Below are positions 1 to 51,117 of a stretch of DNA of 64,000 bases, one piece after another. The translations under genes and the position numbers were made by a program. Every line of letters begins with the position of its first letter. Positions within the stretch are counted from its first letter, which is position 1. This DNA is from Xanthostigma xanthostigma. Taxonomy: Eukaryota > Arthropoda > Insecta > Raphidioptera > Raphidiidae. The DNA lies in assembly GCA_963575645.1 (NCBI GenBank), contig OY754471.1:33922401-33986400 (forward strand), in the 5' to 3' direction. The notes under the pieces were generated by a model. It was given only the letters and a program-made list of their open reading frames with translations. It did not search any database and was not told where the DNA came from.

Positions 1-11
1 AGTAGTTTTAA

Positions 12-16
12 TTAAG
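12..16 (+). promoter_or_regulatory. TTAAG motif just upstream of the PPP1R15-like ORF
   Basis: TTAAG ends 3 bp before the start codon at 20. Baculoviruses and relatives start late transcripts at (A/G/T)TAAG motifs. A five-base motif in AT-rich DNA is weak evidence on its own; another TTAAG lies at 1081-1085 before the third ORF. Confidence 0.2.
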
Positions 17-19
17 AAA

Positions 20-571
20 ATGAATAAAAAAAAAGTGTGTTTTAACGATAAGGTAAAGATTAACTATATGGTTTGTTGGAATTTTGCATATCGTAAAGCG
101 CGGGTGGGAATATGGGAACAGATTGCTAGAGATCGCGATCGATTTAAAAGAAGAATTGAAAAAGTCTCTCATATTCTCACTCCGGTACTGAAAATTGTCA
201 ATTCACCGTTGTCAGTCGAGCAGAACAGAACTGTTGCTACTGCTGCTGCTGCTGCTTCTTTTGAGAATAATAACAACATGGAGATTCCTGAAGCCGGTAT
301 TACAGTTGTTGTAAGAGACAAAAACACAAACGAATTACTGCAATCAAACTATATTGATTGTTCAGATTTAAAGTCACAAAAAGAAACAATTATAGTAGAA
401 AATTTAAAAATTAAAATTATTTTCGAAACAACTGAAGATAGAGTAGATGATTCAGACGAAGACTACGACGACGACGAAGATTACGAAAACGACGAAGGCT
501 TTGAAGATGATGGAAATTATGATGACACCGGTGATTATGACGATTTTGAAATGCATGGTATAAACATATAA
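20..571 (+). CDS. PPP1R15/GADD34-like PP1-binding protein, 183 aa
   Basis: Seen: residues 5-8 (KVCF) form an RVxF-type PP1 docking motif; residues 20-46 continue with W20, AYRKAR, GIWEQ and ARDRDRFKRRI, the conserved block of the PPP1R15 family (PPP1R15A/GADD34, PPP1R15B/CReP, viral ICP34.5 and DP71L). Known: this block brings PP1 and actin to phosphorylated eIF2alpha and restores translation during stress. After it come an Ala run (75-79), an Asn run (83-86), a non-conserved beta-like stretch and a strongly acidic Asp/Glu tail (about 138-178). In animal host proteins the block is near the C-terminus of a much longer protein; here it is N-terminal, as in short viral homologues. ATG at 20 is the first in frame and leaves the motif only four residues in. 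No intron. An AATAAA follows 42 bp after the stop. Inferred: a host-derived eIF2alpha-phosphatase cofactor carried by a virus or an intronless host copy. Confidence 0.8.
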   Translation: MNKKKVCFNDKVKINYMVCWNFAYRKARVGIWEQIARDRDRFKRRIEKVSHILTPVLKIVNSPLSVEQNRTVATAAAAASFENNNNMEIPEAGITVVVRDKNTNELLQSNYIDCSDLKSQKETIIVENLKIKIIFETTEDRVDDSDEDYDDDEDYENDEGFEDDGNYDDTGDYDDFEMHGINI

Positions 572-612
572 AATTAGATTTAAGCAATTTTTAATGTATT
601 GATTTTTTTTAC

Positions 613-618
613 AATAAA
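613..618 (+). terminator. polyadenylation signal AATAAA
   Basis: A canonical AATAAA lies 42 bp downstream of the stop of the PPP1R15-like ORF and well before the next start codon, suggesting each ORF of the cluster may have its own short mRNA. Confidence 0.45.
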
Positions 619-724
619 TATATTTAAACGTAATACTGCGTTTTTATTAAAAAAATACCTTGGGGAAAATTTATATTTCAGATATTAATATTAGAGAAAT
701 GTGTAGTCGACATTCAGTGTTACA

Positions 725-1084
725 ATGGCAGTCGCCGAGTGGAGAACATTCTTCACGTTTGCAGTGTGTGGTTTGGTGAGCGCATATGTAATTGCAGACC
801 TCATAATTTTAGATTTTTGGGTTTCGGATTTAGACAACAAATGCGGATCGATTTTGAAAATAAACAGTACCTACAGTCGAATGTTTCATAAATTTCAAGT
901 GGAAAATGTTGAATATGTAATCGATGCAATGGGAAAAGTCAATAGTACATTGAATGATTTCCAAGAACAACTCAATCGATCGACCACGCATCTGTTCGGT
1001 CTACTGACTTGGAACGTGCATTACTTGAGACAGAACATAAGCGTCTTGATGGAAACGTGTATAAATTGTACATCTAATAATTAA
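725..1084 (+). CDS. Small type II membrane or secreted glycoprotein-like protein, 119 aa
   Basis: I do not recognise a family. Seen: one hydrophobic segment at residues about 8-29 (FFTFAVCGLVSAYVIADLII) close to the N-terminus, a signal anchor or uncleaved signal, then a hydrophilic domain carrying five N-X-S/T sequons (N47, N73, N84, N104, N114) and a C-terminal Cys pair (C112, C115). The mid region (52-108) is heptad-like and may be helical. It lies between the PPP1R15-like ORF and the Cys-rich ORF on the same strand, 153 bp and 17 bp away. A CAGT motif (714-717) precedes the ATG by 7 bp; CAGT is a baculovirus early initiator, but it is too short to rely on. Inferred: a small surface or ER-lumen protein, plausibly viral. 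Sequon density argues for true coding. Confidence 0.6.
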   Translation: MAVAEWRTFFTFAVCGLVSAYVIADLIILDFWVSDLDNKCGSILKINSTYSRMFHKFQVENVEYVIDAMGKVNSTLNDFQEQLNRSTTHLFGLLTWNVHYLRQNISVLMETCINCTSNN

Positions 1085-1101
1085 GAGAGAAAGAGAGAGA
1101 G

Positions 1102-1551
1102 ATGATGAAAAAAAATAAAGGTGTTGGGATACTTGTTATAAAACATGTGTTACCGTCCGGGTGCTTTTCAGTTTGTCAATTGAAGCGATTGAATATGGGA
1201 TACTTAAACATCGTTAAAGATAAACTGAACTCGTTGCTGTTTGGCGAAAACGCCTACCGCATCAAGTGTCCGAGAACTGTGCAACATTTTAAGAATTTCA
1301 AAGATAAATATGAGGACGTTGCTGTCGCCGAGTCTTTCAAGCTGATTGATAACAAAAACGGTTCACACTATGCGAATTGCGTGTGGGCTGACGATAGAAC
1401 GAGATGCGGACCAGATACCTGTCAGTGTGTTGGAATCGATAGAGAAATTGCATCTGTCGAAAAATTGATAGATCATTACAACGACTACTTCTCCGTCTAT
1501 CCTCGAAAAAATGCGAATAAAGAAACAAGCACAGACATGCAATCTCAATAA
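1102..1551 (+). CDS. Unknown Cys-containing protein, 149 aa (or 118 aa from the ATG at 1195)
   Basis: Not recognised. Two starts are possible: ATG at 1102, 17 bp after the previous stop and behind a GA-rich tract, or the internal ATG at 1195 (M32, MGYLNIV), from which the protein has a more ordinary amphipathic start. A TTTCAG at about 1166-1171 could be a splice acceptor if a spliced upstream exon exists. The body is hydrophilic and mixed-charge, with a Cys cluster at about residues 95-109 (CVWADDRTRCGPDTCQC) that could bind metal or form disulfides, and a basic C-terminal tail. An AATAAA follows 8 bp past the stop. The composition and length are not those of a random reading frame in this AT-rich region. 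Context suggests the same transfer event as the two upstream ORFs. Confidence 0.55.
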   Translation: MMKKNKGVGILVIKHVLPSGCFSVCQLKRLNMGYLNIVKDKLNSLLFGENAYRIKCPRTVQHFKNFKDKYEDVAVAESFKLIDNKNGSHYANCVWADDRTRCGPDTCQCVGIDREIASVEKLIDHYNDYFSVYPRKNANKETSTDMQSQ

Positions 1552-1559
1552 TAATAATG

Positions 1560-1619
1560 AATAAACCTGTTAGTTTTTAAGATGATCTTATAACGATATA
1601 TTATTTATGAATAAATAAA
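1560..1619 (+). terminator. Polyadenylation signals after the third ORF
   Basis: AATAAA at 1560-1565, repeated at 1610-1615 and 1614-1619, closes the three-ORF block. Confidence 0.4.
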
Positions 1620-1795
1620 AAATCTTTTTAAGATATATTATGTTTTATTTTAACATCTTTATGTTCCTATCCCACATACAACAGACAGCGACCGATGCAG
1701 ACTCGTTAACGCATGCAAGCCCCCTTGTAAAATATTAACAAGCCCCCAGTCCCCTCCCTGCTCGGAGAACGAAGCGAGCCGGAGTCGAACGCAGC

Positions 1796-2204
1796 ATGTA
1801 GGCGTGTTCCCGCGGCCATGCTGTTTGATTAGTGACGTCACTCGACTGTGAAAAATTTTTTTTTGCAAAGGGACCCCCACCCGTCTCGAGAACGGGACGT
1901 CTGACGAGCGATTGGACGACGCAGACGTGTTGGGGGCGTGCTCTAGTTTAATTAGACGCCCCACTCGACGCTGGAAATTTTCATAGGGAAAGGGTACCCC
2001 CACCCGTCTCGAGAACGGAACCTCTGCCGACCGATTGGACGCCATGGGCGTGGTCCTGCAGACATGCTGTTTAATTTGAGCTCACACTCGACGCTGGACA
2101 TTTTTTTTGGGAAAGGGTACCCCCACCTATCTCGAGAACGGAACCTCTGACGACCGATTGGACGACGCAGACGTGTTGGGGGCGTGCTCTAGTTTAATTA
2201 GAGT
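1796..2204. repeat. Tandem array, period 123 bp, about 3.3 units
   Basis: The sub-motif CTCGAC recurs at 1841, 1964 and 2087 (exact spacing 123 bp). Each unit has a G/A-rich block, ACCCCCACC, GTCTCGAGAACGG and CCGATTGGACG. GC content is much higher than the flanks. It begins about 150 bp after the last AATAAA of the ORF cluster. Could be satellite debris or a repeat region belonging to the same foreign segment. Confidence 0.75.
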
Positions 2205-2314
2205 ATAATGTTGACCATATTTTTTATTTTTTATAGCCCCTCCCTTGGCGGCCATTTTGTTTGGAGGTAGTGGAAGGGGGAGATGAGGGTCCAGAATTGG
2301 TAAAAACCAACTAC

Positions 2315-3166
2315 TAGGATGAGTCAGACCACCCGTATCAGTCGTTTTTTTCGAAAACGGTTAGTCGTAGAGAGTTGTGTCAAAAATCTGTATTATAAAA
2401 GCCCTAATGAAGAATCGAATGGTGATATTTTTTCTCCCCGGAAAGGTCGGTTTCCCTGTTAGTTTGCTCCGAAATGTTCAGAACTCAGGAATGTTAAATG
2501 GCACGATAGATCGAAAGTGGAATTGTTGAAAAGATCTTGAAAAAATAAGCAAGTTTTGTGGGACATTTTTTTTTTGTTACTGCCACCCCTGTTAAGTCAT
2601 ATTCGTTTGAAATTATTAAATTAACATGTAAGAGTAACAAACTTAATTTTAAAAGTTGGCATTTAAAATCTAGTTACCTAATTAAACAATGTCACAAATG
2701 TTCAAACTGTCTTCAATTTACTTCTAAACACTGCAGAGATCTTCTAGATATGTTATGAGTACCTGGAAGTATTTTCCGACAAAAAAAAAACAATTGCAAT
2801 TATTGTTTAATCAGGTAACTAGATTTTAAATGCCGACTTTTTTGTTATTCTGACATGTTAATTTAATAATTTCACACGAATATTACTTAACAGGGGTGGC
2901 AGTAACAAAAAAAAATGTCCTACAAAACTTGCTTATTTTTTAAAGATCTTTTCAACAATTCCACTTTCGACCTATCGTGCCATTTAACATTCCGGAGTTC
3001 TGAACATTCCGGAGCAAACTAACAGGGAAGCCGACCTTTCCGGGGGGAAAAAATATCACCATTCGATTCTTCATTAGGGCTTTTATAATACAGATTTTTG
3101 AGACAACTCTCTACGACTAACCGTTTTCGAAAAAAACGACTGATACGGGTGGTCTGACTCACCCTG
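2315..3166. mobile_element. Long palindromic (foldback) MITE, about 850 bp
   Basis: The arm from 2315 to about 2695 returns as its reverse complement from about 2795 to 3166 with few mismatches; the loop is about 100 bp. Termini read AGGRTGAGTCAGACC on both sides. No transposase is encoded. Confidence 0.8.
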
Positions 3167-3179
3167 TATAAGTAAACAA

Positions 3180-15730: not shown

Positions 15731-16939
15731 AAAGGCGGAAATATAGCAAAAGCAATCTTCAGTGCAACAAACGACCTATACAACGCATGGAATAATCATG
15801 AACCAATCACAACTGTACTGCTGGACTTGTCAAAAGCATTTGACACAGTCAATCACAACATATTGATAGAGAAGCTCCACTACTATGGCATTCGGGGTAT
15901 TCCATCAAAACTAATATCATCATATCTTGAAAACAGATCTCAAGCAGTGGAAATAAATGATGACAGTCAAACTAATAATATTCCCTACATTTCAAACTGG
16001 GCAATAGTAAATCGAGGCGTACCTCAGGGCTCTATTTTAGGGCCGGTGCTCTTTATCTTATATACAAATGAATTTCCTAGAGTTGTACCAAATAGTTATC
16101 TCTTTGCCGATGACACCTGTATAATAGTAAAAAGTGACCAATTTTCTCAAATGGAAACGACAATCAAAAATATAATGAATACAGCCGCAAAATGGTTCGA
16201 GGATAATGAACTAGCACTAAATGTCAACAAAACACAGATAATGAGAGTAGGAAATTATGGCCAATTAAATAAAGAAATCTCTATCACTGCTACTAACAGT
16301 ATTAAACTACAAAATACAGTTCAATTCCTTGGGTTGACTATTGACAACAGTATGTCATTTGCTTGTCACATTGATAAGATAGTCAAAAAAATCAGCAAAA
16401 GTTCATATCTACTTCGTTCCTTAACTAGACAGGCTACTCAAGAAATTTTAATTTCCGCATATTATGCACTGATTGAGTCACGAATAAGGTATGCCATAAT
16501 ATTTTGGGGAAAGTCCCCTCACATTTACGATGTCTTCATTGCGCAAAAGAAAATTATTCGAATAATTATGGGCGTTAAGTCAAGGTCGTCCTGCAGAAAT
16601 GGGTTCAAAAACTTACGTCTTTTAACTGTTTATGGTATATTTGTGCTGGAATGTATAATGTTTTGCAAGAGTAATCAAAGTATCTTTAATCAGAGAAATA
16701 CAATACACAAGCATAATACTAGGAATAAAAATAATTTTGTAGGTATTAATTCTAATCTTTCTGTTGTACAAAATGGTACTTACAATATAATCACAAAAAT
16801 CTGCAACAAATTACCATACAAACTATTCAATTTAGATCCACTTAAACTAAAAAAACATGTTAAAAACATTTTAATTGAAGAAACTTTGTACAATTTAAAT
16901 GACTATTTTAAGATAGATTTTTATAAATATCAATTGTAA
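15731..16939 (+). pseudogene. LINE reverse transcriptase, C-terminal two thirds, frame still open
   Basis: The open frame runs through from about 15731. Seen in order: LLDLSKAFDTVNH (RT motif A, catalytic Asp), GVPQGSILGP (motif B, about 16016), FADD (motif C, 16103-16114), ALNVNKTQIM, then FLGLTIDNSMSFACHI and QKKIIRIIMGVKSR...CRNGFKNL, the C-terminal pattern of CR1/jockey-group non-LTR retrotransposons. About 400 residues remain; the endonuclease and ORF1 are missing, so this copy cannot move itself. An intact frame across 1.2 kb says the insertion is fairly recent relative to its neighbours. There is no ATG that fits; the fragment is simply entered in mid-protein. Confidence 0.88.
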
Positions 16940-50197: not shown

Positions 50198-51117
50198 AAG
50201 GGTCTTTCAACAAGGACGGGTCGATGTTGACAGTTTGTGGCGGCCATGCTGTTTTGGCGGCATCTGTCAAATCTGTTTTTTATTTTTCAGTCATTGATGC
50301 CAAATCATCATCGCAAGTTACACGACTGAGCAGCATGTCCAAATGATAAAACTTTATTATGAAAATTCGTTAGTGCAAACGTTGCGCGCATTGCGTCAAT
50401 TTTACGGCAGACGCGGTGGCCCTTCAAAGTCGACTCTCCAACGTTTGGTGGCTAAATTCGAGACGACCGGTTCAATAAACAACCAACCAACACCCTTACG
50501 GCAAAGGATCGCCAGATCGGCCGAGAACATCGTCAGAGTGTGCAGGAGACTCCGAGGCAGTCGATTTCTCGCCGTGCACAAGAACTCGGCCTTTCGCAGA
50601 CTTCAATTTGGAGAATTTTGCGTCGGGACTTGGGCCTGCACCCGTACAACATCCAACTGACCCAGGAGCTTAAAGTTAATGATCACAGACAACGCCGTTT
50701 GTTCGCTGACTGGGCTTCGGAACGTTTGGAAGAGGACCCCGATTTTGGCCGAAAAATAATCTTTAGCGACGAGGCGCATTTTTGGATGAATGGTTTTGTT
50801 AATAAGCAAAATTGCCGTATATGGGACGACCACAACCCACATGAGGTTCACCAGGTGGCAATGCATCCACAGAAAGTTACTGTTTGGTGCGGATTTTCGT
50901 CAGATTCAGCCGGATCTATGCAGTAGAGTCATTGAAAATTGGACCTCTCGGATCCGTGCCACCGTTCGAAGCCGCGGCGGACATTTGAACGATGTCATAT
51001 TCCATACATAATGGCATAAGTGGGCCTTTCAAACAAAAAAATAATTTCGTTAATATCTCACACACAGCTTGTTTTATTCAATTTCAACATCGACCCGTCC
51101 TTGTTGAAAGACCCTTT
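50198..51117 (+). mobile_element. Tc1/mariner-superfamily transposon, defective, about 920 bp
   Basis: AAGGGTCTTTCAACAAGGAC left is exactly mirrored at the right end (GTCCTTGTTGAAAGACCCTT); the TIRs run about 30 bp. TA on both sides. Encodes remains of a transposase at 50300-51011. Confidence 0.9.
50300..51011 (+). pseudogene. Mariner-type transposase, frameshifted and internally deleted
   Basis: N-terminal helix-turn-helix: EQHVQMIKLYYENSLVQTLRA... GGPSKSTLQRLVAKFETTGS (50319 onward). The reading frame changes at about 50540, then RRAQELGLSQTSIWRILRRD (second HTH), ADWASERLEEDP and FSDEAHFWMNG (first catalytic Asp of the DDE/D triad), NPHEVHQ and KVTVWCGF. After WCGF a deletion removes the second and third catalytic acids, and the C-terminus (RVIENWTSRIRATVRSRGG) continues in another frame to the stop at 51011. 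About 230 of an expected 340 residues remain. The HTH and NxKNCRIWxxxNPH pattern match the insect mariner-like proteins often annotated with DUF4817. Inactive by sequence. Confidence 0.85.

Follow-up and report, generated by a model that had tools for sequence, protein, structure and literature searches.

A Polinton/Maverick element of Xanthostigma xanthostigma carries an intronless, multicopy PPP1R15-like gene

The open reading frame (ORF) at positions 20–571 of the window, the whole 64,000-nucleotide stretch of Xanthostigma xanthostigma DNA analyzed here (C8:33922401-33986400, within a searched genome of 623 Mb in 28 contigs), belongs to a Polinton/Maverick element and codes for a PPP1R15-like (R15-like) protein. 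Judging from the residues it shares with PPP1R15 proteins, this is probably an accessory (counter-defence) gene of the Polinton/Maverick lineage, whose product would recruit PP1 to dephosphorylate eIF2alpha. The element and its features are as follows, in window positions unless a contig is named:

C8:33905945-33924715, Polinton, 18,771 bp, both ends present; its right-hand 12% is window 1..2315 (+)
20..571, plus strand, R15-like gene, 183 aa, ATG to TAA, no intron; 57 near-full-length genome matches, including its own
26..190, plus strand, PPP1R15-type core, residues 3-57; profile and structure-sequence matches, with corresponding human and mouse residues (passages of PMC4394352)
32-43, plus strand, RVxF motif, here KVCF, residues 5-8, from the alignment to 7nzm, 4xpn and 9nb9
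Within the core, the Arg/Trp/Phe/Ile positions R28, W32, F42 and I46, and LTPVL at residues 53-57
296..460, plus strand, strand-rich tail segment, residues 93-147; shared by the A, B and C sublineages and database protein P0001
434..547, plus strand, acidic tail, approximately residues 139-176
725..1084, plus strand, element ORF, 119 aa, no Pfam match; hydrophobic N-terminal stretch by eye
1102..1551, plus strand, element ORF of 149 aa with several cysteines and no Pfam match
1710..2315, minus strand, right terminal inverted repeat (TIR), ~600 bp; 550 bp align at 99.3% to the left copy
1801-2202, internal 123-bp repeats within the right TIR
2316..2321, plus strand, 6-bp target-site duplication AGGATG; identical six bases lie immediately left of the element in locus L034

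Polintons are recognized by polymerase B, integrase, ATPase, PLA2 and double-jelly-roll (DJR) capsid genes, together with TIRs and a 6-bp target-site duplication. The element begins 16.5 kb upstream of the window, finishes at window position 2315 and is bounded by AGTAGT...ACTACT (AG...CT); the right end ACTACT recurs, with different flanks, in four of 16 other fetched copies of the same sublineage (A), and in 12 of the 16 the similarity stops earlier. Upstream of the window, its genes match an A32-type ATPase (PF04665, E 4.4e-7), an rve integrase (E 1.2e-12, with a weak chromodomain match), PLA2 (PF08398, E 3.4e-14) and the DJR capsid protein (PF21738, E 1.3e-94). The polymerase B gene runs for 1121 aa without a stop in locus L030 and reaches a stop in L009; its C-terminal part matches DNA polymerase phrog_1907 (E 1.4e-5) and holds the motifs DANNLY and DTDS, and the ORF gave no polymerase match in Pfam or PDB. 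The same ORF (L030:3737-7099) has an N-terminal C2H2 zinc-finger match, below cut-off, and an endonuclease VII-like stretch (PF02945, E 4.5e-6). No protease or penton gene was seen among the ORFs of at least 110 aa between PLA2 and capsid in this copy; the same interval of a sublineage B copy holds a protease-like ORF (PF00770, E 0.00057, below cut-off) and a 238-aa ORF without a Pfam match.

The R15-like gene starts 4 nt after a 284-aa element gene, and the two small ORFs and the inverted repeat come next. The 119-aa ORF also adjoins the R15-like gene in L026, and a decayed copy in L033, and the 149-aa ORF has a database relative, P0002 (63% identity over 65% of the protein). The preliminary description had suggested a translation-control gene acquired by a virus or retained by the host; a virus-like owner is what we find, but its identity as a Polinton, with dozens of copies in the genome, had been overlooked.

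Several other features lie in the window. Positions 2316-3172 form a palindromic repeat (arms 2316-2574 and 2907-3165, 97%), with ends reading TATACAGG...CCTGTATA once the L034 left flank is added; the Polinton inserted in its first dozen bases. A 128-aa minus-strand ORF at 1659-2045, most of which falls within the inverted repeat and its 123-bp repeats, is probably no gene. Farther right are a reverse transcriptase ORF (15827-16939, PF00078, E 2.3e-20) and a helix-turn-helix ORF (50343-50660, DUF4817, E 1.3e-17), each probably of a transposon.

The N-terminal core of the ORF product was recognized in comparisons with solved structures. As a single sequence, the protein matches human PPP1R15A in the PP1-actin-PPP1R15A complex over residues 4-57 (7nzm_C, E 2.7e-8), 4xpn_B (E 6.2e-6) and ASFV DP71L (9nb9_B, E 0.0021); as a profile built from the protein and 24 database relatives, it matches the same three chains at 1.3e-15, 1.2e-11 and 1.9e-11, respectively. 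Against Pfam PF10488 the ORF scores 17.3 bits, below the curated gathering cut-off of 26.1. The PPP1R15/GADD34-type core that the preliminary description had placed at the N-terminus is thus borne out, as is, through DP71L, the likeness to short viral R15 proteins, and the ORF has the layout described there: domain first, acidic tail last, 183 aa and no intron.

The RVxF motif heading the core is KVCF in A and VRF in B, and LTPVL in A corresponds to LSPVL in B. Twenty-two residues are invariant among A, B, C and the core exon of the host PPP1R15 gene, including V6, F8, R28, W32, F42 and I46. Residues 27-46 of the 183-aa product read ARVGIWEQIARDRDRFKRRI, and R28/W32/F42/I46 are spaced as R658/W662/F672/I676 are in passages of PMC4394352. 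By sequence comparison, the element protein lacks HRxxxYxxRF, the C-terminal end of the host type (a proposed actin contact in its human counterpart), and for this reason we call the product R15-like rather than a full PPP1R15. Beyond the core, a variable spacer leads to the strand-rich segment (residues 93-147), which has no Pfam match. The AlphaFold model (mean pLDDT 64, pTM 0.29) is confident only around a helix at residues 31-61 and places low-confidence strands at 94-99 and 106-112.

The host's PPP1R15 gene lies on another contig. A genome search with PF10488 gave two matches, of which C11:3102611-3102739 passes the cut-off and a broken element copy falls below it. On C11, an ORF with an acidic end, ~458–460 codons long counted from the first ATG, precedes a GT-AG intron, and the last exon behind it codes for 69 residues with the core. 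This exon and the window ORF have a YRKARxGxWEQ block in common, as they would if the ORF were the ordinary host PPP1R15 or its last exon, the case which the preliminary description held would overturn its reading. However, given that the host gene sits elsewhere (C11) in the usual layout with an intron, and that the window ORF has no intron, exists in many copies and lies between the TIRs of an element, we regard this as excluded for practical purposes. A chance ORF was also rejected as a reading of 20-571. The core as a separate exon is a conserved feature of mammalian PPP1R15 genes, according to passages of PMC4394352, and a single exon would make an easy unit for capture.

Six-frame searching of the genome with the R15-like protein returned 124 matches, comprising 57 near-full-length ones and 67 partial rows, some of the latter being pieces of one locus. 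By identity, the near-full-length matches comprise 17 at 97–100% (the window copy included), one at 81% and 39 at 58–64%. The capsid search gave 56 rows, 46 full-length (18 type A, 28 type B) and 10 partial, and each of the 46 full-length capsid matches is followed within 7 kb, on the same strand, by an R15-like gene (near full-length in 45, broken in one); the capsid and R15 counts are lower bounds and cover these sublineages. By our filter, a full ORF from its own start is present in 12/17 A copies and in 24 of the 35 B copies fetched from the 39 matches. Five of the 17 A copies have no in-frame ATG before M17, beyond the RVxF motif; two of these have a stop at codon 3, and in three the match begins at residue 4. 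At 11 loci, including L033 (C4:12104000-12111500), a decayed A-type R15 and a B-type copy lie on one strand, ~6 kb apart, and this paired arrangement may have been amplified as a unit.

Divergence between the sublineages speaks for a shared history. Between A and B, dS is 0.75 for the R15-like gene and 0.73 for the capsid gene (other genes 0.36 to 0.85), which fits one common history of both genes. With dN/dS taken from simple Nei-Gojobori counts on one pair per comparison, the R15-like gene gives 0.33 for A-B (Fisher p 2.8e-7), and the comparison by region gives 0.31 (A-B) and 0.35 (A-C) over the whole gene; A-B values for other element genes are 0.068 (capsid), 0.13 (integrase), 0.20 (PLA2) and 0.24-0.43 (three others). 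The core has a dN/dS of 0.19 in A-B (window-L027) and 0.43 in A-C, and the strand-rich segment 0.33 and 0.23, so that constraint is strongest on the core in A-B, which does not hold for A-C. The R15-like gene predates the A/B split and is under purifying selection, and its capsid-like dS combined with a dN/dS of 0.33 marks it as an old, selected part of the element.

These values bear on whether the gene does anything for its owner. Many R15-like copies are broken, and the middle and tail of the gene diverge fast, both of which would suit a captured exon carried along without function. Yet a dN/dS of 0.33 maintained over a split of dS ~0.75, and the retention of the gene beside every full-length capsid match (46/46), leave such a passenger very improbable. 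We give just as little credence to domestication, in which the host would tune its own stress response with element-borne copies: several copies are intact, but the copies track the element sublineages and decay in both.

We return to the reading of a PP1 adaptor acting on eIF2alpha, for which the conserved residues suggest the following course. During element replication, the R15-like protein would wrap PP1 via KVCF and R28, and the W32-F42-I46 helix and LTPVL would position eIF2alpha. With eIF2alpha held dephosphorylated, element proteins would still be made when eIF2alpha kinases, in insects GCN2 or PERK, would otherwise halt translation. The conserved tail may, conjecturally, replace the function of the missing N-terminal half of cellular PPP1R15.

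Published work, in the passages cited here, is divided on whether the R15 core alone suffices for this activity (PMC4394352 vs PMC7615683). R658/R571, W662/W575, F672 and I676 of R15 matter for actin-stimulated dephosphorylation of phosphorylated eIF2alpha; in cells, clear impairment of R15A was seen only for the R571 and W575 mutants, mouse R15A F585A and I589A behaved as wild type, and the conserved C-terminal core, whether from R15A or from R15B, was enough to damp the stress response (PMC4394352). DP71L requires LSAVL for bridging PP1 and eIF2alpha (PMC10807198). By contrast, a later study argues that the C-terminal PP1-binding fragment brings no rise in activity on eIF2alpha, and that recruitment depends on an upstream region with helix H1, which its authors see in ICP34 and DP71L as well (PMC7615683). 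The acidic ED motif of R15B was replaceable with eIF2alpha capture kept (same source); this makes a simple role for the acidic tail less likely, and the idea of that tail as a copy of the ED motif was dropped.

The H1 argument and the dispensable ED motif led us to weight the eIF2alpha reading lower and to raise a rather unlikely, though not negligible, alternative, a PP1 adaptor with another substrate, in which the core recruits PP1 but the element-specific tail would direct it to something else, such as an immune signalling, chromatin or element protein. The N-terminal part of cellular R15, which recruits the substrate according to passages of PMC7615683, is absent here, the conserved 55-residue segment and the acidic tail stand in its place, and the host-type C-terminal end is gone. 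Nevertheless, the region C-terminal to RVxF, found specifically in eIF2alpha phosphatase adaptors, shows good conservation and matches DP71L, which has only 71 residues in its solved chain. Also counting against the eIF2alpha explanation are the M17 starts, the 11 of 35 fetched B copies without a full ORF, an R15 dN/dS above those of capsid and integrase, the missed PF10488 cut-off, the absent HRxxxYxxRF end and an A-C core no more constrained than the gene as a whole. On balance, dephosphorylation of eIF2alpha is still the function we consider probable.

The core probably came by capture from an arthropod PPP1R15 gene, in which it occupies one final exon, and was joined to a tail specific to the element. 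Searching with a profile built from A, B, C and the core exon of the host returned 125 proteins, and the 120 listed include named genes from six beetles, an ant, a wasp and a moth. Among the matches listed, 116 database rows cover most of the core: 38 are stand-alone, with at most 12 residues before the core and no host-type end by our pattern, 16 are stand-alone with a host-type end, 50 are N-terminally extended and 12 start inside the core. Because gene prediction on short contigs can produce artificially short proteins, the 38 stand-alone rows are a hint only. Two relatives place this gene family in other assemblies: P0003, a 75-aa protein with 81% identity across 33% of the query, and P0001, which matches the tail only (78% over 27%).

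In a quick tree of 112 rows (eight of the 120 listed, shorter than 50 aa, having been dropped), the element rows and P0003 fall together (SH-aLRT 99) within a group of 11 (88) completed by P0017 and six short stand-alone proteins; the host PPP1R15 is placed with P0037 and P0020 (Coccinella) at 94. The group of 11 was not recovered in a tree of 47 rows, from which rows below 55 aa or 74 bits, P0020 and P0037 among them, were dropped, and an AU test on these 47 rows did not reject element and host as one clade (p 0.60). We accordingly make no firm claim on the donor; the nesting inside insect PPP1R15 with viral sisters envisaged in the preliminary description did not emerge from a 58-column tree, in which the donor was not resolved. 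IMG/VR gave no confirmed relatives for the R15-like protein, the 149-aa ORF, two R15 alignments, P0094 or the capsid protein (single and aligned), and the capsid profile found no matches among PDB sequences. Among the database proteins, P0056 (300 aa, ENA contig of 2,693 bases) has an R15 core at 17-73 followed by a C-terminal RING finger (PF13920, E 6e-11), and the R15-like P0094 and P0104 (169 aa) lie on JGI contigs of ~16.4 kb, a Polinton-like size.

More tentatively, and with less confidence than in the adaptor function itself, we suggest that insect Polintons and their viral relatives may carry distinct, long-lived, domain-first stand-alone R15 genes, passed between elements and not recaptured in each host, so that eIF2alpha phosphorylation would be a general barrier to insect Polinton replication. 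If the adaptor reading is right, Polintons, long treated as transposons, would hold a lineage-wide translation counter-defence gene, as expected of real viruses, and insects, which are not known to have PKR, would seem to use eIF2alpha phosphorylation against DNA viruses that integrate. The protein would also be a compact, naturally occurring PP1 adaptor whose tail is new, and could help define the minimal eIF2alpha phosphatase adaptor.

No earlier report of a Polinton-borne R15 gene was found within the literature searched. Known Polinton/Maverick elements and the Adintoviridae/Eupolintoviridae have the same polymerase B, integrase, ATPase, PLA2, DJR capsid, TIRs and 6-bp target-site duplication as the element described here; they differ in that PPP1R15 and GADD34 are absent from the text of three adintovirus papers covered by a term search. 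Cellular insect PPP1R15 has the same core residues, in this host on a separate last exon, but differs in having ~460 residues before the core (in this host), the C-terminal HRxxxYxxRF and one gene above the PF10488 cut-off. Viral R15 proteins are already known from a herpesvirus, ASFV and one insect virus. The last of these, coGV-gp036 (Q1A4R0), stems from what we take to be a granulovirus, a baculovirus. It is given as an insect virus PPP1R15 in passages of PMC4394352, and we liken it to the present protein by description rather than by sequence; its owner is not a Polinton. HSV-1 gamma34.5 (ICP34.5), likened in the same way from passages of PMC10807198, also has a PP1/eIF2alpha core of this kind, but bears it at the C-terminus and has a herpesvirus as its owner. 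Likewise with its core near the N-terminus is the short form of ASFV DP71L (70-72 aa), which has the RVxF motif, the W/F/I helix and an LSAVL-like end, but is a 71-residue chain without the strand-rich or acidic tail and is owned by a large cytoplasmic DNA virus rather than an integrating Polinton.
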